The notes under the pieces were generated by a model, which made no database searches, was not told the DNA's origin, and saw nothing but the letters and a program-made list of their open reading frames with translations. A program made the position numbers and the translations under genes. A DNA stretch of 64,000 nucleotides from Fibrobacter sp. UWB5 (lineage in GTDB: Bacteria > Fibrobacterota > Fibrobacteria > Fibrobacterales > Fibrobacteraceae): assembly GCF_002210295.1 (NCBI RefSeq), contig NZ_MWQH01000009.1, positions 62,001 to 126,000 of the forward strand, given 5' to 3'. Below, piece after piece: positions 4-26,337 of the stretch (within the stretch, counting starts at the first letter, position 1; the number at the start of each line of letters is the position of its first letter).

Positions 4-2709
4 TCATCTAGACTCTAGAGTAATCAACAAAGAATCAAGGCGTGCTGTCAGCTTTTCTGCACCGGTCCAGCACAAATGATCGTAGTCATAAGCGACATCG
101 CCCAAATAATCATGGTCACCCATTTTATTTTCATCCATCAAAACGAAATTCTTCGTTTCCGATTCAACTTTTCTCAATCGTTCAATCAAGTTTTCTGCCA
201 CAGAGCGGCGCATTCCATGGCGGCCATAGCTGCCCGTCTTTTTGTAATATGGACTAATCGGAGTAATCAAGCCGACAACCATCACGTCGTGCTGTTCGGC
301 CATCTTGAGGATTTTATCCAGCTGCGCATAGTTCAATTCATAGCGGCGGCTATCGTCGCTCCAGGTGCTATCGACAACCACGTCTGCAAATTCCTTGCCG
401 CCGCTCCCCCAGTCAGAAATACATTCCGTACGCATCCAGCCATGCGGATCGATAATGTCGGACTGCATCTTATAGGCCTCAGCCACTTCGACAGCCCTTT
501 CTACAAACGCGCTATCGATTTCACCACGCCAGTAATCATGATTGCGGTCATACTTGAATCCAGGAGCATCACCAAAATTAAGCGCCATGCTTTCGCCCGG
601 TTCGTATTCGCCCCACAAGTCAAAATCAATGCCGATCACAAGATATTTCAAATGCGAGAAATGCGTCGAAATGTAGGTTTCATAAAGACTATCAATACAA
701 TGCATATCGCAAGGGATTGTCGAGAGGTTAATAGCCTTCATGCTCAAGAAATCCGGAGCAACTGCCGCCTGCATGTGCGAATTTCCCAAAGTCACGACCT
801 CGGCCGAATCGCGGTATGTCCACAGCACAGGCATCTTTTGCGTCAGGTAATGCGTCGACTGGCCATTTTCAGAATAGTAAAGTCCAAGGCTATCATAATC
901 CCAGCGCGAATTCTTATCACGATGGTGAGCCCAAAGCACAGGGTGCCAAAGTTCTTCGCCTTCAACAAGAGACAGCATTTCGCCCGTATAGGAATTAACC
1001 AGCACTACTTTTTTATGGCTTCCATTCATGTCGGCGAGCGTCGCCACAAAGAACGAGTCGGAGCCAAGAATCCATTCCGTATGGTCAAAGCTATAACCTT
1101 CGGGAGCCGCGACCGAGCCAATCAATTTACCAGTGCTATCGGCAATCAGCGCCCGTTCATGCGTACCGTAAGATTCTCCCACGAACTTGCGACCAGTCTT
1201 GCCGCCAAAATCAAGGAACAGCGTCTTGTTTTCGCCTCCCTGACTGAGCGATACGTTACAGGCCTGATTTTGATTGTACCAGACTTCCGGTTGGCCATTC
1301 ACATTGGCACGCAAAAGGCGTGCGCCCGAAACCGCCAGGCGATCGTTCTTGGATACGCCGCCATGATACCCGCCGTCAAAAAGCTTTTCGGGCTTTCCGA
1401 ACTTGCCTTTCGAAAAACGGACTTGCCAAGTTTCTTGTTTGGCAAAGGCATCCTCTTCTTTATTGCTGCCGGCATCGTTCACATAGACAATCACCGTATC
1501 ACCATTTTCCAGAATTCGCCAACGCGGAATCGCTGCCGATTCAGCCGGAAGTTCAATCAAGGTGGAATCGCCTTCGTCCAAGCGGGACACATAGACCTTC
1601 GACATGCCCGAAATTCCTTCAACTCCTGTGCAGAAGGCGACAAATTTTCCATCGGGAGAAATATCCGGATGGTACGCCGTCACGCCCGTATTCAATTCGA
1701 GAACAGGCGCAGAAGCATCGTTGAAATCCACATACACCAAGACATCACGGGAATCGTCCCTAAAGACCATTTTGGAAAGCGGCTTGTCAATAAACTGCTT
1801 GACCGTATTCGTCCTGACCATCACGGTATACTTCTGCAGGACTTCCTTGCCCTGTTTATCGAGGTAAAGCGGGTTTGGAATGGCACCGAACGCCAAGCGG
1901 AATCCCACATAATTCGCCTTTGTCGAAGAAGCCACCATGTAGACATCGCCACGGTTATACAAATGGAGCGACGCCGGGTCGTTATTGTAGCTACCGCCCT
2001 TCAGCACGCGCTCTTCTACGCCTTCGCTAGCCTTGCCCCCCACATAGTCCACCACATCGACGGTATGGAACGGCACCCACAAATCGTACACCCATTCCAT
2101 GGCATTCCCGGCCATATCGCAAACGCCATTCCGGTCCGTAAACGACGAGCAAACCGCATGCAGTTTAAAATCAGAATTACCGTTATGCCAAGCCTGTTCC
2201 GGTTTCCACCCCATGTTCGCCACATAAATCCATTCCGCCTCGGTCGGCAAGCGATACGCATTTACAAGGGGGCGGAAAATGAGACCATCGATACCGATGC
2301 AAGAATGGTTCGCATCAAACATCAAATTCGTATAAGAATAGGCCGTATCAAAGCCTTCGGCCTTGCTCTTTTTGTTCGCATACAGAATGGCATCAAAATA
2401 AGTCACATCGGTAGCAGGCAAAGAATCTTCACAATCCAGATTCATTTCTTTGCAAGTGACTTCATGTTTGCCGATTATAAAATCGTAATCGAAATACGAT
2501 TTCATGCTTGGCCGGTCTTTGATGGAGGCCGATTCTTCGTCTGTTCCGAGTGTTACAGTCTTTCCCTTGGAACGGATAACGACAAAATCTTTTAATTCAA
2601 GAGAGCCTAAATAATCGTTCTCGCCCGCACCGGGAGCATATTCAGAATTTGAACACCCCAACAAAGCTATCAACAGGCCTAAAGCAAGCAAGTATAACGA
2701 GCGAATCAT
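4..2709 (-). CDS. TIGR02171-like three-module lipoprotein (copy 1)
   Basis: 901 residues. The N-terminus MIRSLYLLALGLLIALLGC is a lipoprotein signal with lipobox ALLGC, so the product is probably membrane-anchored on the periplasmic or outer face. Residues ~40-280 resemble the formylglycine-generating-enzyme (SUMF1) fold: PTEAEW, CDMAGNAMEWV, RVLKGGSY and VGFRLAFG. The paired catalytic cysteines of true FGE are not visible, so this is likely a binding fold. The middle (~320-640) has TolB/PD40-type strands (HPDISPDGKFVAF, IPRWRILENGDTVIVY). The last ~250 residues look SGNH-hydrolase-like: GNSHM as block I and DYDHL (DxxH) near the end. The whole matches the Fibrobacter paralogous family TIGR02171, whose function is unknown. 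Two further copies lie at 9.3-14.8 kb. It starts only 26 bp from the divergent methyltransferase gene, with no clear Shine-Dalgarno site. Confidence 0.85.
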   Translation of the reverse strand: MIRSLYLLALGLLIALLGCSNSEYAPGAGENDYLGSLELKDFVVIRSKGKTVTLGTDEESASIKDRPSMKSYFDYDFIIGKHEVTCKEMNLDCEDSLPATDVTYFDAILYANKKSKAEGFDTAYSYTNLMFDANHSCIGIDGLIFRPLVNAYRLPTEAEWIYVANMGWKPEQAWHNGNSDFKLHAVCSSFTDRNGVCDMAGNAMEWVYDLWVPFHTVDVVDYVGGKASEGVEERVLKGGSYNNDPASLHLYNRGDVYMVASSTKANYVGFRLAFGAIPNPLYLDKQGKEVLQKYTVMVRTNTVKQFIDKPLSKMVFRDDSRDVLVYVDFNDASAPVLELNTGVTAYHPDISPDGKFVAFCTGVEGISGMSKVYVSRLDEGDSTLIELPAESAAIPRWRILENGDTVIVYVNDAGSNKEEDAFAKQETWQVRFSKGKFGKPEKLFDGGYHGGVSKNDRLAVSGARLLRANVNGQPEVWYNQNQACNVSLSQGGENKTLFLDFGGKTGRKFVGESYGTHERALIADSTGKLIGSVAAPEGYSFDHTEWILGSDSFFVATLADMNGSHKKVVLVNSYTGEMLSLVEGEELWHPVLWAHHRDKNSRWDYDSLGLYYSENGQSTHYLTQKMPVLWTYRDSAEVVTLGNSHMQAAVAPDFLSMKAINLSTIPCDMHCIDSLYETYISTHFSHLKYLVIGIDFDLWGEYEPGESMALNFGDAPGFKYDRNHDYWRGEIDSAFVERAVEVAEAYKMQSDIIDPHGWMRTECISDWGSGGKEFADVVVDSTWSDDSRRYELNYAQLDKILKMAEQHDVMVVGLITPISPYYKKTGSYGRHGMRRSVAENLIERLRKVESETKNFVLMDENKMGDHDYLGDVAYDYDHLCWTGAEKLTARLDSLLITLESR

Positions 2710-2735: not shown

Positions 2736-3503
2736 ATGGCCATGTTTTCCGAAAAGAAATTCCTCGCTACCAAAGAGACCTCCAAGGCCAAGCGCATGGC
2801 CGAACTTTTGCGCGTCATCATTTTACAGCTGGGCGACGACGTGCCCCGCGCAAAACGTGAATTCGAGACCTATGCCGAATGGATGAAACTCCCCGAAAGC
2901 GAGCGCCTTACCGGAAAAAACCAGGCGCAAATGATTGACCTTTACAAGACGTTCCGCACTCGGGCTGGCCTCGGGTTCGAACGCGACGTTTACCTGGAGC
3001 AGGAACCGGGCGACCGCGAAGTTGCAAACGAAGCCCCGCTCCCGTTCGCCGTACTCGTGCACAACTTGCGCAGCGCCTTCAACGTAGGCTCCATCATCCG
3101 CAGCACCGACTGCTTTGGGCTCGAAGGCGTGCACCTGAGCGGTTACAGTTGCGGGCCCGACCATGTGACGGTTAAAAGCGCCGCCCGCGGGTGCCAGGAA
3201 TGGATTCCGATCAAACGCTGGGAAAGCCCCTTCGACTGCGTCAAGTGGCACAAGGAAAACGGCTACGAGATTATCGCGCTGGAAACCGGCGAAGACATCC
3301 CGAGCATCAATAACGTCAAGTGGCCCGAAAAAGGCCTGATCATTCTCGGCAACGAAGAATTAGGAATCGCCCCCGAACTGATGGCGGAGGCGACAATGAA
3401 AGTGACAATCCCGATGGCAGGTCGCAAGGCGAGCATGAATGTCGCCGGAGCGTATGCCATCATGTGCTTTAAGATTCGTTCCGACTGCGGACCGACTACT
3501 TAG
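2736..3503 (+). CDS. SpoU/TrmH-family RNA 2'-O-methyltransferase
   Basis: 255 residues. The C-terminal ~160 residues carry the SPOUT (trefoil-knot) motifs: motif 1 around HNLRSAFNVGSIIRSTDCFG, motif 2 around IILGNEELGI, motif 3 around IPMAGRKASMNVAGAYAIM. These bind S-adenosylmethionine, and the conserved arginine of motif 1 is present. The N-terminal ~90 residues are charged and probably contact RNA. The substrate (tRNA or rRNA position) cannot be read from the sequence. ATG at 2736 or 2742 could be the start; neither has a strong Shine-Dalgarno site. The stop overlaps the convergent gene by 8 bp. Confidence 0.9.
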   Translation: MAMFSEKKFLATKETSKAKRMAELLRVIILQLGDDVPRAKREFETYAEWMKLPESERLTGKNQAQMIDLYKTFRTRAGLGFERDVYLEQEPGDREVANEAPLPFAVLVHNLRSAFNVGSIIRSTDCFGLEGVHLSGYSCGPDHVTVKSAARGCQEWIPIKRWESPFDCVKWHKENGYEIIALETGEDIPSINNVKWPEKGLIILGNEELGIAPELMAEATMKVTIPMAGRKASMNVAGAYAIMCFKIRSDCGPTT

Positions 3504-4701
3504 CCAGCGACTTCACCGCATCCGTCAAGCGATCGATGGCCTTGATGAGTTCATCCATCTTGGCTTCGCTGATGCCGGACTGAATTGCATTTGCGGCACC
3601 ATTGACAGCATCCTTCACCTGAGAGGCGACCTTGTCAGCAGCCGTTTCCTTTACAGGAACCTTGCCGAGCCAAATGTCCGGCCAGCGGTCATTGCCGCTG
3701 TGGTAGGTAATACGCGTTGCCGATTCCACCGGTTCGCCAATTTTCCAGATATAGAGTTCGTAGTCGAACAAGTCGTGGTCATGGCCCTTGTCGGTTGCAC
3801 CCCAGACAAGCCACTTGCCATCGGGCGAAAGACGCGGGAAATATTCGTGACTGCGGCGGCCGGGCAAGTCCATCAACTTCACGTTCTTCGGAATTCCAAA
3901 GAAGCCCACCTTTTCAACCTGCTTGCCGTCCTTGGCGCTGAACCACAGAATTTCACTCGGAGCAGCGGTGCCACCGTTACCCGTCGGGTTCACACGGTAA
4001 AGCTTGCTGCCATCAAAGTTCCAGTCAATCTGGCAGCCATCGCCAGACTTGGTCCAAGCATTCTTCGAGAGATCCCACACGCCCGTTTCGCGCATGGAAC
4101 CACGGAGCGTAATGGCCAAGTGCTTGCCGTCCGGGCTCATGTTCGGTTCCTGCAGAATCACGCCGGACTTGTTGAAGGCCTTTTCGCCATCGAGCACAAG
4201 AGTCTCTTTCTTGCTGCCGAGATCCATGGTAAACACCTTACCGGCACGGCTAAAGACGATCGACTTGCCGTCGGGCCTCCAGGTGCCCCACGTTGCATTG
4301 TCTACAACCTTGCGTGCATTTTCGCCCGTAATATTGACCATCCACAAATCCCACTTTTCAGGGTAGTTGGCGTCGTTTTCAGGAACCCAACCGCCCTTGC
4401 TGCGGTTAAAGAGCACCGTCGAGCCATCCGGCGAAATGCGCGGGAACCAGTCCACGTTGTCGCCCTGAGTAAGGGCACGGGCATTCGTGCCATCGGCATT
4501 CATAATCCAAATATCGTGGTGGGAATTGGCGCGGCTCGTCGCCCAGACAATCGCACCTTCAAGTTTGCCTTTCAAGGCGTTGAGGGCTTTCTGTTCATCG
4601 GCAGAAGGGTCAACGGCGGCACCCGTCGGAGCGCCCTGCTGGGCAAAAACCGAGGTCACACCAAAAACGACACAGGCACAAAACTTCAAAATTCTATTCA
4701 T
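3496..4701 (-). CDS. Secreted TolB/PD40-type beta-propeller protein
   Basis: 401 residues with a Sec signal peptide (MNRILKFCACVVFGVTSVFAQ, cleavage probably after AQ or FA). From residue ~50 it shows repeated propeller blades typical of TolB/PD40: DIWIMNADGTNARALT, FPRISPDGSTVLFNRS, TWRPDGKSIVFSR, MSPDGKHLAIT, FPRLSPDGKWLVWG. The tail (~345-401) is predicted helical (DKVASQVKDAVNGAANAIQ, MDELIKAIDRLTDAVKSLAK) and may form a coiled coil. The blades resemble the middle module of the TIGR02171-like proteins in this window, which suggests a shared ancestry. No catalytic residues are recognised, so it may be a periplasmic binding or scaffold protein. It is convergent with the methyltransferase gene, overlapping it by 8 bp. 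Confidence 0.8.
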   Translation of the reverse strand: MNRILKFCACVVFGVTSVFAQQGAPTGAAVDPSADEQKALNALKGKLEGAIVWATSRANSHHDIWIMNADGTNARALTQGDNVDWFPRISPDGSTVLFNRSKGGWVPENDANYPEKWDLWMVNITGENARKVVDNATWGTWRPDGKSIVFSRAGKVFTMDLGSKKETLVLDGEKAFNKSGVILQEPNMSPDGKHLAITLRGSMRETGVWDLSKNAWTKSGDGCQIDWNFDGSKLYRVNPTGNGGTAAPSEILWFSAKDGKQVEKVGFFGIPKNVKLMDLPGRRSHEYFPRLSPDGKWLVWGATDKGHDHDLFDYELYIWKIGEPVESATRITYHSGNDRWPDIWLGKVPVKETAADKVASQVKDAVNGAANAIQSGISEAKMDELIKAIDRLTDAVKSLAK

Positions 4702-4733
4702 GCCCTAAAGATACGAAAAAATAAACGCAAGCG

Positions 4734-4760: not shown

Positions 4761-4780
4761 AAAACATACAATAGAACGCT

Positions 4781-7860: not shown

Positions 7861-7888
7861 GTCCGACCTTCGGGTCGGGCCTTTTTAT
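7861..7888 (+). terminator. Terminator after GH5 gene
   Basis: GTCCGACC-TTCG-GGTCGGGC stem with UUCG-type loop followed by CTTTTTATTT. The T-run overlaps the 3' end of the convergent membrane-protein gene. Confidence 0.85.
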
Positions 7889-9348
7889 TTATCGAATACG
7901 GCGAAGTATTCGTCGCGGTAGGCCAGGTGCCAGCGGGAATCTTGTTGCAAAGCATGCATAAGCGTATCCCAGCGGGCGTAATATTGCAGCGGGAATAAGG
8001 CGCGGTCAACGCCAAGGGAATCGGCGTCATGCATAAACAAGGCGGGGTCTTTGGCGTAATCCAGATACCGTTCAAAGAACTCCGCCGTTTTCAAGATAAA
8101 TCTTCCGTCGATATAAATGGAATCGGCAGGGTTCATTAGCGCCAAATAACCGCCGGCGCGGTCATCGTTAAACAGCTTGCCAACATGCGGATGTTTCAGC
8201 ATCCAGCCCGCAGCATCGACCGGCACACGCTGGTAGGCAACCATGGAATAATCGTAAGCCGAAAGCGAACGAGCCCAAAGGCCCAGAATAAAAGCAAGAA
8301 GAGCAAGCGCAAATGTATAATGTGGAATACGAATCGAGGTCACAACCTTCGGTTGCATTGAGGGAACAGGGAGCCCCGCCATAAGCACCGGCAAGAACAG
8401 CACAAAGTTGCGTTCGGCAACAAGCGCTAAAACCGCCGTTACCAAGAATGTCACATTCAAGACATCGGGCCAGCGAGCCTTATACAAGCGCCAGATGGCA
8501 AAGCCCATTCCGGCGACACAGAGCAAAATCATCAGCACGCATTCCAACGTATTCTCCCCCGCCATCAAAAGCGTTATGGGCGAACGGTTCTCGGCGATTT
8601 CGCTTGCAAAGATTGCCGCCGAGGGCGAAAGTCCAAGCAAACGGTCCAAGAGTCCAAACGGGTACAGGAATAACGCGAGGCCCTCGCGATGCAAGAACGG
8701 CATCGCAAACAATGCAACAACAAAAGCTCCCCGCAACGCAAGCGCCTTCCACAAGAACTTATCGCCCGCCCTGCGCGAATTCCAAATTCCGGCAACCAGC
8801 ACAAGCGCCGTAAAAAGCGGACCAAGAATGTACAAGCCTTGCGTTTTACACCAAAGCCACTGAATCGCAAGAATCAGCGCAGCACACGCAGCCAGCTTCA
8901 GATTGAACCGGGATTCACGCAATTCTTTAGCAAGCCACGGAATCACATTCCAGTAAACACCGAGGAATAACAGCGAAAACAGCACCGGACGCATTTCAAA
9001 ATGGAAGCGGAATACGAATAGGATTGCAATGCAGAACAGCCATCTGGCGGGGATTGCCGATGCTGAAACGAGTTCAGCATGACATTCAGGGTGACAAGGA
9101 CGACGGCGAAGGAACAGCGCAAAGACCGCACCCCACAACACCGCCTTGAACGCCACCAAGAGCGGAGCGCCACCCAGGCCATAGACAAAGCCTACGACCA
9201 GCTGAAAGTATTCATGCACATTCACAACGGGCGCGCGGACAGGTGTCCATGTCGTCACCCACTCGCGTGCACAAGCCAAATGCCACCAGATGTCAGTATC
9301 GGTCAGCGGAAAAATCGCAAACAGAATGACAAATGCGGCTATTACCAT
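7885..9348 (-). CDS. GT-C-like polytopic membrane protein
   Basis: 487 residues from the ATG at 9348, which overlaps the upstream stop as ATGGTAA and so should be translationally coupled; the longer frame runs into the upstream gene. The first ~60 residues hold a hydrophobic segment and TDTDIWWHLACAREW. The pattern of aspartates plus WHL near the N-terminus, ~10 hydrophobic segments, and a soluble C-terminus with NDDRAGGYLALMNPADSIYIDGR resembles uncharacterised bacterial GT-C glycosyltransferase-like proteins that use lipid-linked sugars. No activity is shown. A short palindromic repeat is inserted in frame (9052-9092). As the last gene of the TIGR02171 operon it may glycosylate or assemble a surface product. 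Confidence 0.75.
   Translation of the reverse strand: MVIAAFVILFAIFPLTDTDIWWHLACAREWVTTWTPVRAPVVNVHEYFQLVVGFVYGLGGAPLLVAFKAVLWGAVFALFLRRRPCHPECHAELVSASAIPARWLFCIAILFVFRFHFEMRPVLFSLLFLGVYWNVIPWLAKELRESRFNLKLAACAALILAIQWLWCKTQGLYILGPLFTALVLVAGIWNSRRAGDKFLWKALALRGAFVVALFAMPFLHREGLALFLYPFGLLDRLLGLSPSAAIFASEIAENRSPITLLMAGENTLECVLMILLCVAGMGFAIWRLYKARWPDVLNVTFLVTAVLALVAERNFVLFLPVLMAGLPVPSMQPKVVTSIRIPHYTFALALLAFILGLWARSLSAYDYSMVAYQRVPVDAAGWMLKHPHVGKLFNDDRAGGYLALMNPADSIYIDGRFILKTAEFFERYLDYAKDPALFMHDADSLGVDRALFPLQYYARWDTLMHALQQDSRWHLAYRDEYFAVFDK
9052..9092. repeat. Palindromic repeat inserted in frame in the GT-C-like gene
   Basis: TGCTGAA-ACGAG-TTCAGCA (9061-9079) flanked by GGGATTGCCGA and TGACATTCAGGGTGACA. 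Read on the minus strand it encodes CHPECHAELVSASAIPAR in a cytoplasmic or periplasmic loop between hydrophobic segments. Such CHAELVSAS-type peptides are recognisable translations of a short intergenic mobile palindrome found in many bacterial genomes. Confidence 0.75.
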
Positions 9349-12062
9349 TTCAAGGTCTTCAGGACAGAAACCAACCGGTCTGTCATCTGCTTCTTGCCGG
9401 CGACACAAAGGTGATCGCGATTAAAAGACATTTGATCCGTATAATCATGATCGCCATTCTTATTTTCATCCATCAAGACGAAATATCGATTTGCCTTGGC
9501 AAGCGAATCCAGCTTTTTCTTTTTCGAAGGATACACACTGCGCTGCAGGCCATAAGTTCCGAAGCTTCCCGTCTTTTTGTACTGCGGGGCCATCGGGAAA
9601 ATGATTCCGATGACATAGATATTCTTGGCCGCCGCACTGTCCACGATTTCGGCAAGTTCATTCAATCGTGCATCCAGATAGCGTTCTTCTTGTGTCGAGA
9701 ATACAGAATCCATCAGCACGTCGGTTCCGTCGGCATCCCAGCCGCGACATTCGTCATCGACGCCGCCGCGAGGAGAATAACGCATAATCCAGCCTTGACT
9801 TGCCGGGTACGCATTTTCAACCGCCTCGACAAAACCATTGGGCAATCCCGATTTCCAGAAGTCGTGATGGGCATCGTAATCGTAACCGGGAACACCCATA
9901 TGAATCAAACGCAAGTGGTCTTCCCTTCCGCTCCAATTGTCCAAATCTAGGGACATCACAATCGCTTTCAAGTTGTCGGCATGGTTCAACGCATAATTTT
10001 CAACGAAATACATATCGCGGTTTCCGTCAATTCCCGAAATAGCCACATTCAACATATTCCATTCCGGGTACGCTTCCGGATCAAGCCCCATTTCCATGCG
10101 GGAACTACCAACCAAAAGAACTTCGGTTTCATCGAGGTTTTTCCAGTAGAGTTCCATCTTGATACGGGATTTTTCAGTTTCAATGTCTAGACCTTCGCCA
10201 TAGTAAATGCCGGCGCTATCCAAATCCAGCAATTCATCGTAGCCCGCAAAGGTTGCATTCACCCAGAGTGCGGGGTGCCAAAGTTCATCGCCTTCGGCCA
10301 ATTCCACAACGCTAGAGTCCGAAAGATCCACCAAAACGATTTTTGTATGGGCACCGTTTGCATTCGTAAGCGTTGCAACCGCCTTATTATGGTTACCCGG
10401 GACCCATTCGCTGTGGTCAAAGGAATAACCCTTCGGTGCTCCTACCGATTGAATCAACTTGCCCGTACTGTCTACGACCAGAATGCGTTCGTGCGTACCG
10501 TACTTGGAGCCGACAAATTCTCGACCCGTCTTGCCGGCAAAATCAAGGAACAAGGTTCGTTTGCTGCTATCTTGGGCAAGCGAAGCATTGCAAGCCTGGT
10601 CGCCATTGTACCACACTTCGGATTCAGAGCCTGTACGGGCTCGCAGTAAGCGTGCACCCGTGACGGCAAGGGAATTATCTTCGCTGATGCCACCATGGTA
10701 AGCGCCATCGAAAAGTTTTTTCGGTTCGCCAAACTTACCCTTCGAGAATTTCACTTGCCAAGTCGAAGTAGACATGAATGCAGCATCATCCTTATTGTTG
10801 CCGGCATCCGTCACATACACAATGACCGTATCACCGTTTTCGAGCACGCGCCAACGCGGAATGGCAGCCGTTTTGACATCCAGTTTGACAAGGCTCGAAC
10901 CTTCGGCATTCAAGTCACGCACATAAACAGTCGACTTGCCCGAAACGCCCTCAAGCCCCGTGCTAAAGGCAACCTTTTTTCCATCCGGCGAAATATCCGG
11001 GTGGTATGCATTCAAGGTATCCTCGATTTCTACGACCGAAAGCGCACCGTTGGAATAATCCACAAAAGACAAGTTGCCCGACAAATCATTACGGAATGCG
11101 AGCTTGACTCTGTACGTGTCAAAAAGGCTCTTGAGCGTCGAGGAACTGGCAAGCGGAATCACGCGGCTACCGGCCGCCTTGCCGTCAGAATTCATCCACA
11201 AAGCATCGGGAATTAAACCAAAGGCCAAGCGGAAGCCCACATAATCGGCACGGGTTGAAGACGTTACCGTATACACGTCACCACGGCCATAAAGCGTAAT
11301 GGATTCTGCCGGGGTCCTGTAGCAGCCGCCCTTCACGACGCGCTGTCCGAGGTTCCCGCCATCAGGAGCCCCCACATAGTTTGCAACAGCCGTATCGCGG
11401 AAATTGCCGAGCCAATCATTTACCCATTCCATTGCGTTTCCGACCATGTCGCAAACCTGGGCATTTTCAGACTTTGAGCAAACCGCATGCAAGTGATAAT
11501 CCGAATTGTCGGCCGTCCATGCATTTTTCATATTCCAGAAACGGCCAGCCACAAAAGCCCATTCAGCCTCGGTCGGCAAGCGATACGCATCCACTTCAGG
11601 GTGGAATGCAAAACCCTCCAAGTTCACGCAATGGTTTTCGGAATTCAGTTCAACATTGCTATACGTATACGCTGTATCGAAACCTTCATTTTTGCTGCGG
11701 GCATTTGCCAAAAGGACGGCATCGTAGTAGGTCAAGTTCGTCGCCGGATAATTGTCTTTTTCACACGGGACCGAAATCTTCGAAGATTTCATCAGCGAAT
11801 TGAATTCGGCACAAGTCACCTCCGACTTGCCTATCGAAAAATCGTAATTCAGGGTCACACGCATTTGCGGGCGTTCATTCGCCCTGGCAGCCCCTTCGTT
11901 TGTACCTAGCAAGACTTCCTTTTTTTCGTGCTTGACCACAACCATATCGCTTTTCGAATCCGGCTCAAATCCAGAATCGGCATTCTGCTGCGAATAGATA
12001 TATTCAGAATTGGAACAAGCAAAAAAGGCAAAACTCAGCAGCAACAGAAGAACTCGATACAT
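9342..12062 (-). CDS. TIGR02171-like three-module lipoprotein (copy 2)
   Basis: 906 residues. Lipoprotein signal MYRVLLLLLSFAFFAC with lipobox AFFAC. The FGE-like module spans ~45-290 (PTEAEWAFVAG, CDMVGNAMEWVND, VVKGGCYRT, VGFRLAFG). One cysteine is present in the GGCY motif, but the Cys pair of active FGE is not. The TolB-like blades span ~330-640 (HPDISPDGKKVAFS, IPRWRVLENGDTVIVY). The SGNH-like module starts at ~670 with GSSRMEMG and ends NRDHLCVAGKKQMTDRL; here the expected DxxH aspartate is replaced by Asn. It starts 3 bp after the stop of copy 3 and its stop overlaps the next start, so it lies mid-operon. Copies 2 and 3 are more alike than either is to copy 1. Confidence 0.85.
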   Translation of the reverse strand: MYRVLLLLLSFAFFACSNSEYIYSQQNADSGFEPDSKSDMVVVKHEKKEVLLGTNEGAARANERPQMRVTLNYDFSIGKSEVTCAEFNSLMKSSKISVPCEKDNYPATNLTYYDAVLLANARSKNEGFDTAYTYSNVELNSENHCVNLEGFAFHPEVDAYRLPTEAEWAFVAGRFWNMKNAWTADNSDYHLHAVCSKSENAQVCDMVGNAMEWVNDWLGNFRDTAVANYVGAPDGGNLGQRVVKGGCYRTPAESITLYGRGDVYTVTSSTRADYVGFRLAFGLIPDALWMNSDGKAAGSRVIPLASSSTLKSLFDTYRVKLAFRNDLSGNLSFVDYSNGALSVVEIEDTLNAYHPDISPDGKKVAFSTGLEGVSGKSTVYVRDLNAEGSSLVKLDVKTAAIPRWRVLENGDTVIVYVTDAGNNKDDAAFMSTSTWQVKFSKGKFGEPKKLFDGAYHGGISEDNSLAVTGARLLRARTGSESEVWYNGDQACNASLAQDSSKRTLFLDFAGKTGREFVGSKYGTHERILVVDSTGKLIQSVGAPKGYSFDHSEWVPGNHNKAVATLTNANGAHTKIVLVDLSDSSVVELAEGDELWHPALWVNATFAGYDELLDLDSAGIYYGEGLDIETEKSRIKMELYWKNLDETEVLLVGSSRMEMGLDPEAYPEWNMLNVAISGIDGNRDMYFVENYALNHADNLKAIVMSLDLDNWSGREDHLRLIHMGVPGYDYDAHHDFWKSGLPNGFVEAVENAYPASQGWIMRYSPRGGVDDECRGWDADGTDVLMDSVFSTQEERYLDARLNELAEIVDSAAAKNIYVIGIIFPMAPQYKKTGSFGTYGLQRSVYPSKKKKLDSLAKANRYFVLMDENKNGDHDYTDQMSFNRDHLCVAGKKQMTDRLVSVLKTLKW

Positions 12063-12065
12063 CGC

Positions 12066-14825
12066 TTACCTCAACTCCTTCAAGACAGATTCAATCCGTT
12101 TTGTGATTTGGGGAGCACCTCTCGCGCAAAGATGATCTTCATCTGCAGAAGATTGGTCGTCATAATCGTGTTTCCCCATCTTATTTTCATCCAGCAACTT
12201 GAAATGCGGATAAGTTTTTTCCAAAGCCTTCAGGTCATCAATGACTTCTTTGGCAAGGCTTCTGCGCAAACCATAACGGCCAAATGCTCCCGTTTTTCTG
12301 TAGGCCGGATTTTGCGGGAAAATAACACCCACGACGCCAACACCCCTTTCTTCCGCCTTTTCAAGAATTTCCTTGAAGGCCTTCATCGAATTTTCAAGTC
12401 TGTCAGGATGGTCATCGTAGTACAGGGAATCCATTTCGATATCAGGATTCTTGCTCCAAGGCTTACAACCGGTTCCCAGCATACGGCCGCGGTCATCCAA
12501 GAAGGCATAGTCGCCTTCAACCGTCATGTAATTCGCGGTATATTCCAGCAGGCCTTCCGGATATCCGTCTTGCCAGTAATTGTGATTCTTGTCGTACACA
12601 AACCCGGCATAATTCTTGTAATTCTTCTTGAAGAAATTGTCACTATTTTCGCCTTCATCGGTTTTGTACCAAAAGTCGATATCCAAAGAAATCACGATGT
12701 ACTGCAACTTTTTGAAATGCGGATAAATGTAGAAGTCCAAGAAATCCTTCGACATGTATATGGAATTAGGCGTCTGTGCAAGATTGACCGCATAGAACGG
12801 TTGCACCATGTACTTGGGCGACACAGAATGCAACGGGCGCGACGAACCGACAATCACGACGTTTGCCGTATCGCGATAACGCCACACCAATTCCATATTG
12901 TAGCGCATCAAAATGCCTTCAAGGTTTTCGCCGGCGTGCATGTAGACGCCAGCGCTATCGCCATCGACTTCAAACTTGGATTTATCCAAGGCATCCGGAA
13001 TCCAGAGGCTGGGCTGCCATAAGTCATCGCCTTCGACCAAATCCGTCAGGCTGTTATCTTGCATATTGATAAGCACGATCTTCTTGTGCATACCGCTTGC
13101 TTCGGTAAGAGTAGCAACGGCATAGTCGGAACGGCCGCGCACCCATTCCGTATGATCAAAGGAATAGCCCGAAGGAGCCTTGATGGAGCTAATCAATTTG
13201 CCCGTGCTGTCCACCACCAGAACGCGTTCATGAACACCATAAGACTCGCCCACAAACTTCTGGCCCGTTTCGCCACCAAAGTCAAGGAACAAGGTTTTCT
13301 TGGAACCATCGGTTGCAAGCGATGCATTGCAAGCCTGCTCGCCATTATACCACAAGGTATCGTGGGCTTTCGATTCCAACGTCGAAGAGCCCTCGGCCAC
13401 TTTGGCACGGAGCAGTCTAGCACCCGTCACGGCCAAGCGTTCATCGGCGCTAATCCCATCGTGGTAAGCGCCATCAAAAAGTTTTTGCGGTCTACCGAAT
13501 CGTTCATTCTGGAACTTTACCTGCCAAGTCTCTGTACGCTTGAACGTGCCGTCGTTTCGATTGTCGCCGGCATCCGTCACGTAAACAATCACCGTATCCC
13601 CATTCGGGAGAACTCTCCAGCGCGGAATCGATGCATTATCGACTTTCAGTTTCATTATTTTAACATAGCCCAGCGAAAGCGTCCTGACGTACACTTCGGA
13701 TTTACCGGAAACGCCTTCAAGTCCTGTAGAGAAGGCGACAAAACGTCCGTTCGGCGAAACATCCGGATGGTACACCTCCAAAGTGTCCTTGATTTCGGCA
13801 GTATAAATGGTTCCGTCCGAATAATTCACATAGGCCAGATTACCGGTCAGGTTATTGCGGAAAGCAAGAACCACCTTGTATGCATCCAAATGGTTCTTTA
13901 ATGTGCGCTGGTTCACCAGCGAAATCACGCGCTTGGAATTGGGAATGCCGTCATAATCGATCCACACCGGATTGGGAATTTGGCCAAATGCCAAACGGAA
14001 ACCGACATAGTCTGCGCGAGTAGACGAGGTAATCGTATACACGTCGGTTCGACTGTACAAATTGATTGCATCTCCGAGTTGGCGATAGCTGCCACCCTTC
14101 ACAATTCGCTTACCCATGTTGCCGCCATCTGGTGACCCCGTGTAATTGTAGATGGTAGTATCCCTGAAGAATCCGAGCCAGTCATTGACCCATTCCATGG
14201 CGTTACCCGCCATATCGCAAAAATCAGTTGAATCTGCAATTCGGGTGCAAACCTCATGCAACTGGTTTCCCGAATTTTCGGCATTCCAGCTCGCCTTCGG
14301 ATGCCATTTACGGCCAGCCACCACGACCCATTCCGCTTCGGTCGGCAAGCGATAGCCGTCTACATCGGTATGAAAATAGAATCCTTCGAGGAACGTACAA
14401 TGTCCATCGCTATCGACCTGTTTGCTCGAATACGAATACACCGTATCGAAACCGTCCGCCTTGCTTTTTTCGTTGGCATACAAAACGGCATCGTAGTAAG
14501 TCATGTCTGTCGCAGGGAGATTCTTGCTTTTGCAAGAAAGCTTGAGCCCCTGGGGTTTCATCAATTTATTGAATTCGCTACAAGTGACTTCGTGCTTGCC
14601 CATCGAAAATGGATAATCCACCTTGACTTTCATTTGGGGGTATTCTTCCAACTTTGCTGCGGTATCGTTCGTTCCAAGAATTGCCGTCGCATTATAGGCC
14701 GTCACTTGAATCATGCCATCCAGTTTATCTTTTGAAAACCCCAGATAAACATAATCGGATGTGGGATTCACATCGGCGCAAGCAAAAAACAGGAGCGATA
14801 TTAAAGAGAGTAAAATAACCCGCAT
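12066..14825 (-). CDS. TIGR02171-like three-module lipoprotein (copy 3)
   Basis: 919 residues from the ATG at 14825, which gives a clean lipoprotein signal (MRVILLSLISLLFFAC); a GTG at 14858 would extend it by 11 residues. Modules run in the same order as the other copies: FGE-like with PTEAEWVVVAG, CDMAGNAMEWVND, IVKGGSYRQ, VGFRLAFG; TolB-like with HPDVSPNGRFVAFS, IPRWRVLPNGDTVIVY; SGNH-like with VIVGSSRPLHS and DEDHLCARGAPQITKRI. FGE catalytic cysteines are absent. An extra ~10-residue insertion (SSTLESKAHD) breaks the propeller relative to copy 2. The gene lies 35 bp downstream of the transglutaminase-like gene in the same operon. Confidence 0.85.
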   Translation of the reverse strand: MRVILLSLISLLFFACADVNPTSDYVYLGFSKDKLDGMIQVTAYNATAILGTNDTAAKLEEYPQMKVKVDYPFSMGKHEVTCSEFNKLMKPQGLKLSCKSKNLPATDMTYYDAVLYANEKSKADGFDTVYSYSSKQVDSDGHCTFLEGFYFHTDVDGYRLPTEAEWVVVAGRKWHPKASWNAENSGNQLHEVCTRIADSTDFCDMAGNAMEWVNDWLGFFRDTTIYNYTGSPDGGNMGKRIVKGGSYRQLGDAINLYSRTDVYTITSSTRADYVGFRLAFGQIPNPVWIDYDGIPNSKRVISLVNQRTLKNHLDAYKVVLAFRNNLTGNLAYVNYSDGTIYTAEIKDTLEVYHPDVSPNGRFVAFSTGLEGVSGKSEVYVRTLSLGYVKIMKLKVDNASIPRWRVLPNGDTVIVYVTDAGDNRNDGTFKRTETWQVKFQNERFGRPQKLFDGAYHDGISADERLAVTGARLLRAKVAEGSSTLESKAHDTLWYNGEQACNASLATDGSKKTLFLDFGGETGQKFVGESYGVHERVLVVDSTGKLISSIKAPSGYSFDHTEWVRGRSDYAVATLTEASGMHKKIVLINMQDNSLTDLVEGDDLWQPSLWIPDALDKSKFEVDGDSAGVYMHAGENLEGILMRYNMELVWRYRDTANVVIVGSSRPLHSVSPKYMVQPFYAVNLAQTPNSIYMSKDFLDFYIYPHFKKLQYIVISLDIDFWYKTDEGENSDNFFKKNYKNYAGFVYDKNHNYWQDGYPEGLLEYTANYMTVEGDYAFLDDRGRMLGTGCKPWSKNPDIEMDSLYYDDHPDRLENSMKAFKEILEKAEERGVGVVGVIFPQNPAYRKTGAFGRYGLRRSLAKEVIDDLKALEKTYPHFKLLDENKMGKHDYDDQSSADEDHLCARGAPQITKRIESVLKELR

Positions 14826-14860
14826 TTGCAAAAAATAGCAATTTGGGGCAAAAAACACGA

Positions 14861-15607
14861 TTACAGGTGGTCAGGTAAACGGCTTTTAGCAATCTCTTGG
14901 TTGGCCTTGATGCCCGGATATTCCACAAAGAACTCTTCGGCCATGCGGTACCAGGTCAAAGCGCGGCGCAAGTCGCTGTCCAAGTACAGGTTTCCCATAT
15001 TGAAGGCGGCAAGTCCCACGAACTGCGTAGGCGAAAGCGGTTTAAATTCAAGCCCCGTCCAGGGGCCGGCCTTGTACTTTTCGCGGTACTCGGCGTCGGT
15101 ATAGCTATAGCCTTCGCGGTTGGGTTCCAGATTGATTGCAGACGAAGAATCCGCGCCGTAACGCAAGAACACATGCCCCGGGAGCATGATGACCGAAAGT
15201 GGCAAGTGGCGAGCCTCCGCTACCATCATCGCAAGCCAAGAAAGGCCCATGCAGCCGGACTTTTTCATTTGCAGCACGTGCAGCGGGAGAATCGCTTCGG
15301 CGGTAACGGCCGCATCGCCTGCACCCGCAAATTCTAGCCCCCAATAAGTCCACAGCAGGCTTTTCAGGCTCCACAATGTATCGCCAGTCGACGCAAGCGA
15401 GCTGTCGAAATAAGCAAGACCGCCATTCCAGATTTTCATCGAATCGAGGCAACCCGGCATGCGGTCTTCGAAAGAACACGCCGCATCGCGAAAGCCCATG
15501 GTCTCGGCACGCCCGCTCCAGAGTACCAGCGCTAACGACGCCGCCAGAACGACGATGAGCACCGGCCAAAAGAACCGTTTTGCAAGTGCGGCAAGGCGAG
15601 CGAGCAT
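14861..15607 (-). CDS. Transglutaminase-like membrane-anchored protein
   Basis: 248 residues from ATG at 15607, 5 bp after the upstream stop; a GTG at 15628 that overlaps the upstream gene is possible. One N-terminal membrane segment (PVLIVVLAASLALVLWSG) and a periplasmic domain. GCMGLSWLAMM, LPGHVFLRYG and INLEPN line up as the Cys-His-Asn/Asp order of transglutaminase-like (SirB1-type) folds, so a papain-like catalytic site is plausible. The last ~50 residues (MGNLYLDSDLRRALTWYRMAEEFF) look like one TPR unit. Its position between an SGNH lipoprotein and two TIGR02171-like proteins suggests envelope processing or assembly; the substrate is unknown. Confidence 0.65.
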   Translation of the reverse strand: MLARLAALAKRFFWPVLIVVLAASLALVLWSGRAETMGFRDAACSFEDRMPGCLDSMKIWNGGLAYFDSSLASTGDTLWSLKSLLWTYWGLEFAGAGDAAVTAEAILPLHVLQMKKSGCMGLSWLAMMVAEARHLPLSVIMLPGHVFLRYGADSSSAINLEPNREGYSYTDAEYREKYKAGPWTGLEFKPLSPTQFVGLAAFNMGNLYLDSDLRRALTWYRMAEEFFVEYPGIKANQEIAKSRLPDHL

Positions 15608-15612
15608 GGAAA

Positions 15613-17586
15613 TTAAAGTCCGTCCCACTCCATGGGAGACTGCCAGAAGTCACGAGCCGTCATCATGTAAATCACGAGACGCTTGCTCTGCATGTCCTTC
15701 TTCATTTTCATCATGCGGTGGTACACGCCCGGGCCGCCGCCCCAGCTAGTAAGCACCTGCACATCGAGCCCTGTCGCATAAGCCAACAGCGAGCCCGGGC
15801 CGCCCGATTTCTGGTCGACCGATTCAAACACGCCCGTAAAGGAATCGCCCATCAAGAGAATCGGCGAATTCTTGCCGCCCTTGTAGGCTTCGGTGCCCTT
15901 GAAGATTTTCATTGCAGGCAAAGTATCTGCCGGGTACTTGGACTTTTCGGCATCGGGCAAATGCGCCACAAGATCGCCTTCACGTACCGTTTTCGTTTCT
16001 TGCAGGTTAAGCGAACCGGGCTGTGCTCCCGATTCGGCGTACCAAGAATACTGCGTCACGCGGCTCGCCAAGAGTTCCATGGCAGCAAGCATACCAGGCA
16101 AGGACCAGTGCGTATCGTAACGCTGGTAGCTGTAATGCGGAGGTTCATCGCCCGATTTGGCAGCCATCAGGGCCGGGTAAAGATCAAGCACGTCGAGTCC
16201 TGCAGCAAGCATTTCGCGAGTGAATTCGCGACCGGCCGGATTCACGCAAAGGTCGGCAGCAGTGCCTTCGACCAGGCGTTCGCCATAAATTTCTTCTTTC
16301 ACCGGAACCGGCACCACCAAGAGTTGCACGTTCAGGGAATCTAGGTACTTCTTGAGTTCCAGCAGACGCGGGAGCGGGTTGTGCAAGGAATCCTGCTTGG
16401 TTATTTTATCTGCAAGCAGATAGTTGGCATTGCGTCTGAACCAAAGCATGTCGCCACCGGCCCAAGCGTTCTGTTCCTTCGGGAGTTTCTTGAGCTTTTT
16501 CGAGAGGGCATCGCGGAACTTTTTCGTGTCCGCATTCACAGGGCACGTTCCCTCGAGCGATGCAAGCGTTTCGAGCCTGAATGCAGAACTCGTATCGAGC
16601 ATGCGGTTCACCGGCACCACCTCGCCCGCTTCGGCCAAGGAATCTGCCGTACGCTTGGCACGCAAGGCTTCGTCGCTCAAGCGGAACGCAGGCACTTCAA
16701 AAGCGATCCACATCGGCGTCCCCATCGGGTTTCCGCGCATCACGGCAAAAGGCCTGTTGGCATCGCCTTCCCACGGGGCTCCAGCCGTATGCGGTTCCAA
16801 GTCGGTATTCAAAGTCGGATACCAGTAAGACGACAAGGTACGGGCCCAGTTCATGGCATCGTCAATATTCATTTCGCCGGTCAAGTAGTAATTCAAAATT
16901 TCAGCGGTTTCGCCCTTCGAAGAGAGCTTTAGCTTACCATAAAATACAGTGCGGCCAGTCCACTGCGCAGGCATCACTTCGACCCACCAGTCCACAGAAC
17001 CATCGCTCAGGGGAACGCCCCACATGCGGGTCACCGTCTGGAAGGCCCTGAACACATCGGGTTCATTCCACTTGACCGCTTCAACGGAATTCAAAATCTG
17101 AGCTAAAGAATCGTTGCCGGTCTGTGCGTAAAGAATCTTGGCAAGCGGTTCCCAAGCCAAAGGCTGGCGGCCCGCAATGGCAGCAGGCTCATATTCCGAA
17201 AGGGAATCCAGCATCGGGAACGGATATTCCGCAAGCTTTGTCGAAGCCATTTTGCCCGTATAGTTTTCAGGCTTTTCTTCTTTGCCCGCCAGGCGAATCG
17301 GGTTATTGAAATACGCCGCAAAATCGAGGGCTGCAAGAGTGGGCTTTTTAACCACGCGCACCTGCTTATCGGCACTGATGAATTTCATTTCGAACACAGT
17401 CACCGACGTCGAAGGCTGGGGCGGCAATGCCGCCGGGCGCTCCGCAGACACGCTCTCGGTCGCAGGTGCATTTGCATCCGGTTTATTCGAGGCACAAGAA
17501 GAAAGTGCTGCCACCAAGAGCGACGACGAAAGCATCGCCAAAGAAATTTTGGTCAAAGAATTTTTAGCGCGGGATTCCAATTTCAT
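15613..17586 (-). CDS. AlgJ/AlgX-like SGNH lipoprotein
   Basis: 657 residues. The signal MKLESRAKNSLTKISLAMLSSSLLVAALSSC ends in lipobox ALSSC. After a ~280-residue N-terminal region with no recognised domain, the C-terminal ~280 residues match the SGNH fold of alginate O-acetylation proteins (AlgJ/AlgX, DHHW family): LLVVPVPVKEEIY, YQRYDTHWSLPGM carrying the DxH pair, and ILLMGDSFTG with the putative nucleophilic serine. Family members move acetyl groups onto exopolysaccharide in the periplasm. A partner MBOAT (AlgI type) is encoded at 24.5 kb, not in this operon. It is the first gene of the 17.6-7.9 kb operon and divergent from the CLC gene. Confidence 0.75.
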   Translation of the reverse strand: MKLESRAKNSLTKISLAMLSSSLLVAALSSCASNKPDANAPATESVSAERPAALPPQPSTSVTVFEMKFISADKQVRVVKKPTLAALDFAAYFNNPIRLAGKEEKPENYTGKMASTKLAEYPFPMLDSLSEYEPAAIAGRQPLAWEPLAKILYAQTGNDSLAQILNSVEAVKWNEPDVFRAFQTVTRMWGVPLSDGSVDWWVEVMPAQWTGRTVFYGKLKLSSKGETAEILNYYLTGEMNIDDAMNWARTLSSYWYPTLNTDLEPHTAGAPWEGDANRPFAVMRGNPMGTPMWIAFEVPAFRLSDEALRAKRTADSLAEAGEVVPVNRMLDTSSAFRLETLASLEGTCPVNADTKKFRDALSKKLKKLPKEQNAWAGGDMLWFRRNANYLLADKITKQDSLHNPLPRLLELKKYLDSLNVQLLVVPVPVKEEIYGERLVEGTAADLCVNPAGREFTREMLAAGLDVLDLYPALMAAKSGDEPPHYSYQRYDTHWSLPGMLAAMELLASRVTQYSWYAESGAQPGSLNLQETKTVREGDLVAHLPDAEKSKYPADTLPAMKIFKGTEAYKGGKNSPILLMGDSFTGVFESVDQKSGGPGSLLAYATGLDVQVLTSWGGGPGVYHRMMKMKKDMQSKRLVIYMMTARDFWQSPMEWDGL

Positions 17587-24427: not shown

Positions 24428-24516
24428 CGGGGCTAAATTTAGAAAAAACCGAGCCCGCCGCCCACTCAAACAACATTCTTTTACTTTCAATCAGGCTTTT
24501 TTCTAAAGCCGCAATC

Positions 24517-25935
24517 CTAGAATTGGAAATAAAGGAACGGATTGTAGCTTTGTGTAAACAAAGCGAGAATGGCCACGATAAAGATGGCTAACGCCACAAC
24601 CACACGAACCGGCGAAACCTTGCTGCACCAGTCAAAGCTGCGGAACTTCCAGAACGAAAGCAAGGCCGCAAGCGCCATAAAGAACAGGCAAGTCGGCGTA
24701 AAGATTTCAGCAGACAGAATCGCATCGGCAGAGCTCACCGCATTGAACCCGAGCATGCACTTCCACATGCGCCAGGCTTCGCCGATATTGTCGGCACGGA
24801 ACAGCACCCAGCCAAACAGCACAATCACCTGCGTAATCAGGACCTGCACCACTTTGGGAGCCTTGTAATAGAAAGCGTTCTTGTTGTTCGCGCGTTCCAC
24901 GATCATAAAGAAGGCATGGTACAAGCCCCAACAAACAAAGGTCCAGTTGGCACCATGCCACACGCCGCTCACGAACATGACCAGGAACAGGTTAAAGTAC
25001 AGGCGTGCCGTGCCCACACGGTTTCCGCCCAGCGGAATGTACAGGTAGTCACGGAACCAGCTCGTCAGCGAAATATGCCAGAACTTCCAGAATTCGGTAA
25101 TACTCTTGGAACGGTAGGGGCCGTTAAAGTTGCGCGGGAAATGAAACCCGAGCATAAGTCCAAGACCAATCGCCATGTTCGAATACGCCGAAAAGTCAAA
25201 GTAAATCTGGAACATGTATGCAAGCGAGCCCCACCAGCTGTTGAGCACGCCAGGAGCATCAGCCGCAAACACTCGGTCTGCAATAATGCCCACCTGGTTT
25301 GCAAGGAATATCTTTTCGGCAAAGCCAAAACAGAAAAACGAAATGCCGCGCACAAAGTTTTCGAGCGTATGCGTACGGGTCGCCAGTTCTTCGGCCACAG
25401 TATTGTAGCGCACGATCGGACCCGCCACCAGCTGCGGGAACAAGGCCACGTAGCAAGCAAATGTCGCAAAGTCCTTTACCGGAGGAGCAGTCCCGCGCCA
25501 CACGTCAATGGCGTAACTCATGGACTGGAACGAATAGAACGAAATACCCACCGGCAAAAGCACAGTCATGACAGAGAACGGTTCGCAACCGAGCTTTGTA
25601 ATGACGTCATTGATGACGCCCATGCCGAACATGTAATACTTAAAGTAACCGAGCGCCCCGAGGTTCACCGCAATAGCGGCCCCCAGTGCCAGATTCCGTT
25701 GCAGTTTAGAAGCACCCGGAGCCGAAATAAAGCGGCCGGCCACGTACACCACCAGGGTGCAACCGAACATCAGGAACACGAGCCACGGTTCAAGCCATCC
25801 GTAAAAAACGTAGCTGAAAACCGTGATAAAGAAATTCAATAGAGAATGCTTCGCGTGCAGCTTGTACAACACGAAGTAGCCGACCAGGAACGTCGGCAAG
25901 AAATAGAACAAGAATAACTGGGAAGAAAAGACCAC
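24517..25935 (-). CDS. MBOAT O-acyltransferase, AlgI type
   Basis: 472 residues, ~11 hydrophobic segments. Typical AlgI sequence: MVFSSQLFLFYFLPTFLVGY, YFDFSAYSNMAIGLGLMLGF, FRDYLYIPLGGNR, FVSGVWHGANWTFVCWG with the catalytic-region His of WHG. It transfers acyl (usually acetyl) groups from the cytoplasm to an envelope acceptor via a periplasmic SGNH partner. No partner is adjacent; the AlgJ/AlgX-like protein at 15.6-17.6 kb is a candidate. Start is GTG at 25935, 3 bp after the upstream stop. Confidence 0.9.
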   Translation of the reverse strand: MVFSSQLFLFYFLPTFLVGYFVLYKLHAKHSLLNFFITVFSYVFYGWLEPWLVFLMFGCTLVVYVAGRFISAPGASKLQRNLALGAAIAVNLGALGYFKYYMFGMGVINDVITKLGCEPFSVMTVLLPVGISFYSFQSMSYAIDVWRGTAPPVKDFATFACYVALFPQLVAGPIVRYNTVAEELATRTHTLENFVRGISFFCFGFAEKIFLANQVGIIADRVFAADAPGVLNSWWGSLAYMFQIYFDFSAYSNMAIGLGLMLGFHFPRNFNGPYRSKSITEFWKFWHISLTSWFRDYLYIPLGGNRVGTARLYFNLFLVMFVSGVWHGANWTFVCWGLYHAFFMIVERANNKNAFYYKAPKVVQVLITQVIVLFGWVLFRADNIGEAWRMWKCMLGFNAVSSADAILSAEIFTPTCLFFMALAALLSFWKFRSFDWCSKVSPVRVVVALAIFIVAILALFTQSYNPFLYFQF

Positions 25936-25938: not shown

Positions 25939-26337
25939 CTACTCGTTTACTTCGATAGCAAGGTAACGCGGAGATTCGTCGTCAAAGTATTCGTCTTCGA
26001 CAGCGCCGTCCCAGTTGCCTTCGAGCGGCACGAGCTTGAGCTTATGCTTGGCCTTGGCCTTGAATTCGCCTACATTGCCCTTGGACTTGTCGGCCATTTT
26101 GTCCTTGACCTTACCGCGAGCAATCAGCGGGTTGTAAACGCCAACCAACACATCTTTGGCATCGAGTTTGCCCGATTCCACCTTCAGCACCTTGTACTTG
26201 AACACGTACACGTAGCTGTACAGGTCGTTACTCGGCATCTTGCCCGGAATTTCGGTCAAGCGGCCTTCAATAGCAATGGGATCAGCCACGGCAAAAACCG
26301 CAGCGGCAAACAGAATGGCAATCAATTTTTTCAGCAT
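25939..26337 (-). CDS. Small secreted protein in operon with AlgI
   Basis: 132 residues, signal peptide MLKKLIAILFAAAVFAVA. The mature part is acidic at the end (DEYFDDESPRYLAIEVNE) and has alternating beta-strand patterns (YSYVYVFKYKVLKVESG, VLVGVYNPLIARGKVK). No family recognised. GGAGGCATT precedes the ATG. Only 3 bp separate it from the AlgI-type gene, so it may be a periplasmic partner in acyl transfer. Confidence 0.75.
   Translation of the reverse strand: MLKKLIAILFAAAVFAVADPIAIEGRLTEIPGKMPSNDLYSYVYVFKYKVLKVESGKLDAKDVLVGVYNPLIARGKVKDKMADKSKGNVGEFKAKAKHKLKLVPLEGNWDGAVEDEYFDDESPRYLAIEVNE

Follow-up and report, generated by a model that had tools for sequence, protein, structure and literature searches.

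Which function unites five closely packed genes of Fibrobacter sp. UWB5 that code for an AlgJ/AlgX-like lipoprotein, a transglutaminase-like protein, two lipoproteins of the TIGR02171 family and a GT-C-like membrane protein? The genes lie in a 64,000-nt stretch of contig C9 (hereafter the window) of this 3.36-Mb genome, and an earlier note on the same DNA had seen in them an operon built around the two TIGR02171 lipoproteins, possibly a surface acylation or glycosylation machine. We report here that the five genes are a fragment of a previously undescribed module of approximately 13 genes, found in Fibrobacterota and in some myxobacteria, to which the TIGR02171 genes are a lineage-specific addition. 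The module probably acylates and glycosylates an envelope glycan.

Re-reading the open reading frames (ORFs) on the minus strand recovered all five genes between positions 7885 and 17586, where the earlier note had placed them. The gene for the AlgX/AlgJ-like SGNH lipoprotein (AlgX; 15613..17586, 657 aa, lipobox LSSC) comes first, followed by TG, which codes for a membrane-anchored transglutaminase-like protein of the SirB1 type (14861..15607, 248 aa, ATG at 15607), TIGR02171-1 (12066..14825, 919 aa from the ATG at 14825 or 930 aa from an alternative upstream GTG), TIGR02171-2 (9342..12062, 906 aa) and GTC, which codes for a GT-C-fold membrane protein with a C-terminal globular domain (7885..9348, 487 aa). 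Successive genes are 5, 35 and 3 bp apart except for the last two, which overlap in ATGGTAA, as claimed, and the identities proposed for the first two products were borne out by Pfam (PF16822, E = 4e-19, for the AlgX-like protein; PF13369, E = 1.1e-7, for TG). The genome is close to F. succinogenes, whose metagenome-assembled genomes encode an AlgX-like protein with 96% identity to the one in the window.

The five genes are a fragment of a larger module

The gene-neighbourhood comparison proposed in the earlier note was carried out on 46 Fibrobacteraceae loci from GTDB genome records (L143-L188), in which the five-gene order recurs far beyond chance. AlgX and TG are immediate neighbours in 44 of these loci and stand within two genes of each other in all 46, and TIGR02171 genes lie downstream in 43, the remaining three loci ending at a contig end. 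GTC follows the TIGR02171 genes, except in G033 and in the F. intestinalis type, in which it precedes them. The number of TIGR02171 copies per operon also varies, usually from 1 to 3 and up to 5 in G067. This variable number and position around AlgX-TG-GTC indicates that this trio is the older unit and that TIGR02171 genes joined it in Fibrobacteraceae.

More distant relatives revealed the extent of that older unit. In G030 (L141, the same stretch as L199), ten genes on one strand are arranged as SDR1-GT2-SDR2-W150-MBOAT-AlgX2-AlgX-TG-GTC-PROP, while G048 carries the run W150-MBOAT-AlgX2-AlgX-TG-GTC-PROP and G058 the run PERMPROP-OMP-(small)-SDR1-GT2-SDR2-W150-MBOAT-AlgX2-AlgX, followed by a separate gene for a protein with a domain like that of formylglycine-generating enzyme (FGE). 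In G033, from a related genus, PERMPROP-OMP-small-SDR1-GT2-SDR2 are still together. Eight of the ten core genes are collinear in Polyangia: Sorangium cellulosum So0157-2 and two other Polyangia/Myxococcales records share the order MBOAT-AlgX2-SDR2-PROP-SDR1-GT2-AlgX-TG, and a fourth such record has AlgX-TG-W150-GTC. The AlgX-like protein of S. cellulosum is 31% identical to that of the window. MBOAT and AlgX2/AlgX are thus adjacent in distant Fibrobacterota as well as in Polyangia, and W150 lies directly upstream of MBOAT in most distant clusters that extend that far. TIGR02171 is absent from the ancestral run of AlgX-TG-GTC with MBOAT and its other partners, so the operon is not built around these lipoproteins, which are clade-specific accessory proteins rather than core components. 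Our limited search of the literature found no description of this gene set, and a search for a described exopolysaccharide system combining acetylation with a transglutaminase returned nothing relevant.

The core run is broken up in Fibrobacter, and the window retains PROP, AlgX-TG-[TIGR02171]-GTC, MBOAT and W150. MBOAT (24517..25935, minus strand), an AlgI-type acyltransferase gene, lies 7 kb from AlgX; W150 (25939..26337, minus strand), just upstream of it, codes for a small exported protein of 132 aa with no Pfam family. PROP (3496..4701, minus strand) codes for a PD40/TolB-like propeller protein of 401 aa (PF07676, E = 2.1e-16), and its relatives adjoin GTC or AlgX. Other parts are scattered in the same genome, with AlgX2 on contig C10 (L127), the permuted-propeller gene PERMPROP and OMP together on C1 (L226) and SDR1 on C3. 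OMP is predicted to code for an outer-membrane barrel, and the protein ends in Phe or Leu. A 775-aa protein with an FGE domain is encoded approximately 3 kb from the PERMPROP-OMP pair (L226, 3613-5940 and 9231-11581).

The presence of the module is concerted across the phylum. Phyletic profiles were drawn for 101 Fibrobacterota genomes from 36 genera, with presence thresholds chosen from gaps between E-values and with fragments at contig ends counted as present. MBOAT and PROP are all-or-none: 66 genomes carry both, 35 carry neither and none is mixed (20 genera with both, 0 and 0 with one alone, 16 with neither; Fisher p = 1.4e-10, phylogeny ignored). AlgX and MBOAT co-occur in 64 genomes (AlgX alone in 0, MBOAT alone in 2, neither in 35), and GTC and MBOAT in 63 (GTC alone in 0, MBOAT alone in 3, neither in 35). 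Across the tested pairs, by-genus Fisher p values ranged from 1.4e-10 to 2.0e-5, again with phylogeny ignored. Each of the 58 genomes with a full-length TIGR02171 protein also carries AlgX, and 6 AlgX-bearing genomes have no such protein. Since the type IX translocon protein SprA was found in 101/101 genomes, the absences of the module are not simply missing data. Two Fibrobacter species (G017 and G063, both 99% complete) are without all five scored components and without OMP and SDR1 orthologues. AlgX, MBOAT and PROP went undetected in G028, in which TIGR02171 matches are limited to the FGE domain; G024 has the same pattern except for a PROP match at E = 1e-4 and a retained SDR1. OMP and SDR1, scored in smaller sets of genomes, are distributed like the module apart from the SDR1 kept by G024 and from G048, which shows no OMP.

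Conserved catalytic residues of the acyltransferase and AlgX-like proteins

The 472-aa MBOAT protein (PF03062, E = 1.3e-25) ends in FLYFQF. This C-terminal FXYXXF motif is present in 13/13 full-length relatives, and the W-H motifs FW..WHisL and G.WHGA are conserved in the 10 sequences aligned. In PatA, the FXYXXF motif was shown to carry the acyl group, acting as an acyl-Tyr shuttle (PMC12148441). The residues expected of a partner are also in place: D491-x-H493 and S582, which lies in GDSF, are invariant in 24 diverse AlgX-like proteins, and the strict pattern DTHW plus GDSF occurs in 66 of 70. Here DxH precedes GxS, a permuted triad order described for AlgJ and AlgX (PMC4148444). Profile comparison gave AlgJ as the best match (4.7e-12), and AlgX and PatB1 (3.5e-6) were matched in the PDB too. 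In TG, the Cys, His and Asn motif residues are conserved among 42 members.

These features recall alginate O-acetylation in Pseudomonas (AlgI, AlgJ, AlgX and AlgF), which likewise relies on an AlgI-type MBOAT with a C-terminal FXYXXF tail and on a pair of AlgJ/AlgX-family SGNH proteins with a permuted triad; in the pair of the module, DxH and Ser are intact. Unlike that system, the module has an AlgX-like protein with a long N-terminal region and adds GT-C, transglutaminase-like, propeller, SDR and GT2 genes. AlgF (PF11182) had no match in the UWB5 genome, but the control genomes gave none either. The PatA/PatB and DltB/DltX/DltD relays also share an MBOAT acyl-Tyr tail motif that hands over to an SGNH Ser, whereas their partner genes differ from those of the module, which is unlikely to act on peptidoglycan or teichoic acid.

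GTC adopts a GT-C glycosyltransferase fold

GTC has no match in Pfam, in a sequence search of the PDB or in PHROGs, and fold comparison alone was informative. An AlphaFold model built with 40 homologues (pLDDT 88, pTM 0.89) gave STT3, AglB, DPY19, PglB, PMT, ArnT and Emb/Aft enzymes as its best PDB matches, with Z scores of 8 to 15.5 and a root-mean-square deviation (rmsd) of 4.5-5 over ~435 residues for the top match. All of the first 44 matches listed (Z 7.8-15.5) are to GT-C enzymes or to soluble domains of such enzymes, which upholds the GT-C-like assignment of the earlier note. The C-terminal domain also aligns with the globular domain of AglB-S2 (Z 9.2, rmsd 2.8 over 111 residues). GTC therefore resembles known GT-C glycosyltransferases (STT3/AglB/PglB, PMT, ArnT and Emb) in its overall fold over 487 residues and in the acidic motif D17-x-D19, which from general GT-C topology we take to lie in the first periplasmic loop and in which D19 is invariant among 40 members; it differs from them in having no sequence match in Pfam or the PDB. 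A GT2 gene accompanies GTC in relatives, and the pair suggests transfer of a sugar from polyprenyl phosphate.

TIGR02171 lipoproteins combine an FGE-like fold, a propeller and a probable SGNH domain

Both operon lipoproteins are full-length members of the TIGR02171 family of Fibrobacter, with 1204 bits for TIGR02171-1 and 1223 bits for TIGR02171-2 against a curated cut-off of 544 bits, more than twofold above it. The genome carries seven full-length genes of the family, and two others besides those in the operon are on the same contig: one in the window (4..2709, minus strand; 1058 bits at C9:62013-64685) and one just beyond the window start (C9:59332-61989, 1074 bits).

The earlier note had described these lipoproteins as three-module proteins, and a model of TIGR02171-2 built with 48 homologues (pLDDT 89, pTM 0.83) confirmed the folds of two of the modules. 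Residues 31-283 form an FGE-like fold whose best match is Treponema denticola variable protein 1/TvpA (2y3c; Z 27.2, rmsd 2.6 over 235 residues), and Z scores to FGE-fold structures ranged from 19 to 27 (PF03781, E = 1e-23). Residues 302-603 match the TolB propeller (Z 22.6, rmsd 3.5 over 260 residues). Among 49 members, the FGE-like domain has no conserved Cys other than the lipobox C16, and none at the presumed positions of the active-site pair of FGE; it is therefore not a formylglycine-generating enzyme. Thus, while the N-terminal domain shares its fold with FGE-like/C-type-lectin-fold proteins (TvpA, PvdO and GldK/PorK; Z 20-27), it differs from them in lacking the active-site Cys pair and in sharing its polypeptide with a propeller and an SGNH-like domain. 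TIGR02171-1 and TIGR02171-2 scored 15.9 and 20.6 bits against the GldK equivalog model, below its cut-off of 350. The nearest solved relative, 2y3c, is presumably a target of a diversity-generating retroelement, although the TIGR02171 N-terminal domain looks conserved rather than hypervariable.

The third domain (residues 625-905 of TIGR02171-2) is modelled with high confidence as an alpha/beta domain and is probably of the SGNH type. G652, S654 and H884 are invariant in the full-length alignment, with G-x-S near the start of the domain and the His near its end, preceded at three residues by D or N (D in TIGR02171-1, N in TIGR02171-2; DxxH in most members), so that an apparent catalytic Ser and His are kept. 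Ser comes before His, the canonical order, unlike the permuted one of AlgX. Sequence matches are weak (PAF acetylhydrolase, E = 0.05; SGNH-type Pfam families, E = 0.03-0.2), a PHROGs search with this domain returned nothing, and SGNH folds are not among the 50 fold matches listed for TIGR02171-2, a list filled by FGE-like and propeller domains. Of the three SGNH-like products counted in the earlier note, the AlgX-like protein is upheld by PF16822 and its AlgJ profile match, whereas the two TIGR02171 proteins are SGNH-like at the level of motifs. A profile comparison found no relationship between this domain and AlgX (probability 1.5%), so that the SGNH type of TIGR02171 is not closely allied to that of AlgX.

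Separate FGE-domain and permuted-propeller genes stand beside the G058 module, and the TIGR02171 propeller matches the permuted propeller weakly, which hints that TIGR02171 proteins were born by fusion of module parts with an SGNH-like domain. Short propeller-only TIGR02171-like genes occur in some Fibrobacter operons (L030, 424-1494; L154, 10660-11724; L155, 9983-11131; L156, 9993-11063), in two cases between AlgX and TG. A literature search for TIGR02171 found no paper, and both the context and the fold are, as far as our searches went, new for the family.

Neighbouring genes

Beside the operon, a GH5 cellulase is encoded at 6372-7835 on the plus strand, and a GH8 enzyme that carries the type IX secretion tail PF18962 at 4781-6211 on the minus strand, between the propeller gene and the cellulase gene. 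Plus-strand ORFs at 3439-4896 and 5210-6355 were rejected as genes, as the minus-strand translation gives the propeller and GH8 genes. Directly downstream of MBOAT, positions 22308-24490 (minus strand) code for two proteins, one a PpiC chaperone of the SurA type and the other weakly similar to SurA.

Proposed function and alternative explanations

The best reading of the module is MBOAT-SGNH acylation coupled to polyprenyl-sugar chemistry (GT2 and GT-C) on a periplasmic or surface glycan. In the cytoplasm, the two SDR enzymes and GT2 would make a sugar and load it onto polyprenyl phosphate, from which the GT-C protein would transfer it on the periplasmic side. MBOAT would charge the Tyr in its C-terminal FXYXXF motif with a cytoplasmic acyl group, probably acetyl, which the catalytic Ser of the two AlgJ/AlgX-type SGNH proteins would accept and pass to the glycan. 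Assembly or guidance of the machine, or export of its product, may fall to W150, the propeller proteins and the predicted outer-membrane barrel, and TG may act on the product or a partner through a Cys-His reaction, be it cross-linking, transfer or hydrolysis. The TIGR02171 lipoproteins, at the surface or in the periplasm, would then supply several versions of an acceptor-binding or acyl-editing step, combining an FGE-like recognition fold, a TolB-type propeller and a probable SGNH esterase or acyltransferase; their expansion and their entry into the operon would both have taken place in Fibrobacteraceae. Of all these steps, the handing of acyl groups across the inner membrane to AlgX-type proteins is the best supported, because MBOAT-SGNH chemistry is established and the catalytic residues are conserved. 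The lipoproteins, propellers and barrel-like protein suggest that the work is done at or near the outer membrane.

That the five genes are nothing but neighbours is hardly credible and was already strongly disfavoured: TIGR02171 genes do also stand alone elsewhere in the genome, but the order recurs in the 46 Fibrobacteraceae loci, presence and absence are concerted across the phylum and the core is found in Polyangia too. A device of type IX secretion, for instance for anchoring secreted cellulases to a surface glycolipid, might be read from the GH8 gene with its Por-secretion tail and the GH5 gene beside the operon, and from the resemblance of the TIGR02171 N-terminal domain to PorK/GldK. 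We consider it very unlikely, as that resemblance is one of a shared FGE-like fold, below the GldK cut-off, and as SprA is universal in the genomes profiled while the module is present in about two thirds, G017 and G063 keeping SprA without it. Somewhat less remote, but still improbable, is O-acetylation of peptidoglycan by a PatA/PatB-type pair made up of MBOAT and the AlgX-like protein, with the other genes serving something else. The MBOAT tail motif is of the PatA type and the AlgX-like profile matches PatB1, a secondary wall polymer acetyltransferase, yet its best match is AlgJ, and acetylation of the wall would have no need of the co-conserved SDR, GT2, GT-C, propeller, barrel and outer-membrane-type lipoprotein genes.

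Protein glycosylation is the strongest of these rivals, though we think it unlikely. GTC would then act like an oligosaccharyltransferase, the TIGR02171 proteins would be its clients or chaperones and acylation would decorate the protein-linked glycan. The closest folds of GTC (STT3, AglB, DPY19 and PglB), the match of its C-terminal globular domain to AglB-S2 and the multiple lipoprotein genes within the operon all agree with this. However, GTC also matches enzymes with lipid or glycan substrates, namely ArnT, Emb and Aft (Z 8-11), identity to the fold matches is 14% or less and conveys no acceptor specificity, and the Polyangia module is without TIGR02171 in the stretches read.

We therefore think that the operon is probably part of a module that acylates and glycosylates an envelope glycan. 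This agrees with the earlier note insofar as the window contains an MBOAT gene, linked to AlgX in relatives, for the acyl donor that such a machine needs, and GTC has a GT-C fold; it departs from it in that the five genes are only a fragment and TIGR02171 is not core. The scaffold role that the note gave to lipoproteins is at most a possibility, given the apparent catalytic Ser and His in the C-terminal domain of TIGR02171. Several points weigh against our reading. We infer all of the chemistry, the substrate (acyl group and glycan alike) and the parts given to the assembly proteins, TG and TIGR02171. MBOAT and AlgX are not adjacent in Fibrobacter, and the genomes behind the co-occurrence counts are not phylogenetically independent. 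GT-C enzymes span protein, lipid and glycan transferases, so the acceptor could belong to any of these classes. TIGR02171 is absent from several core-bearing genomes and unlinked to the core in most distant families, so that its role could be looser than co-membership; moreover, its SGNH assignment is motif-based, the other two domains having filled the list of structure matches, and profile comparison does not relate the domain to AlgX.

Significance for the envelope of Fibrobacter

To go by the title of a 2001 paper by Vinogradov et al., cited in PMC9311074, F. succinogenes is reportedly without lipopolysaccharide (LPS), and how its outer surface is built is thus a question on which the module may bear. 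Literature searches for aminoethylphosphonate or for the glycolipids of LPS-lacking Fibrobacter returned reference-list mentions only, such as Vinogradov 2001. Tentatively, the module could be an entirely new kind of envelope machine with some 13 parts, shared by Fibrobacterota and Polyangia, that makes or completes an acylated outer-membrane glycan of unusual type, with the multi-copy TIGR02171 lipoproteins as exchangeable surface acyl-editing enzymes; in Fibrobacter, such glycans are possibly those that stand in for LPS. G017 and G063, which belong to the same genus, would be natural comparison strains for surface glycan analysis.

For TIGR02171, a family with many copies per genome, the tie to an MBOAT-SGNH-GT-C module gives a first likely and testable role. 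The module itself, which recurs in Sorangium cellulosum, extends known acyl-relay chemistry with a transglutaminase-like protein, a GT-C enzyme and propellers, and there is a fair chance that a new surface-glycan pathway lies behind it.

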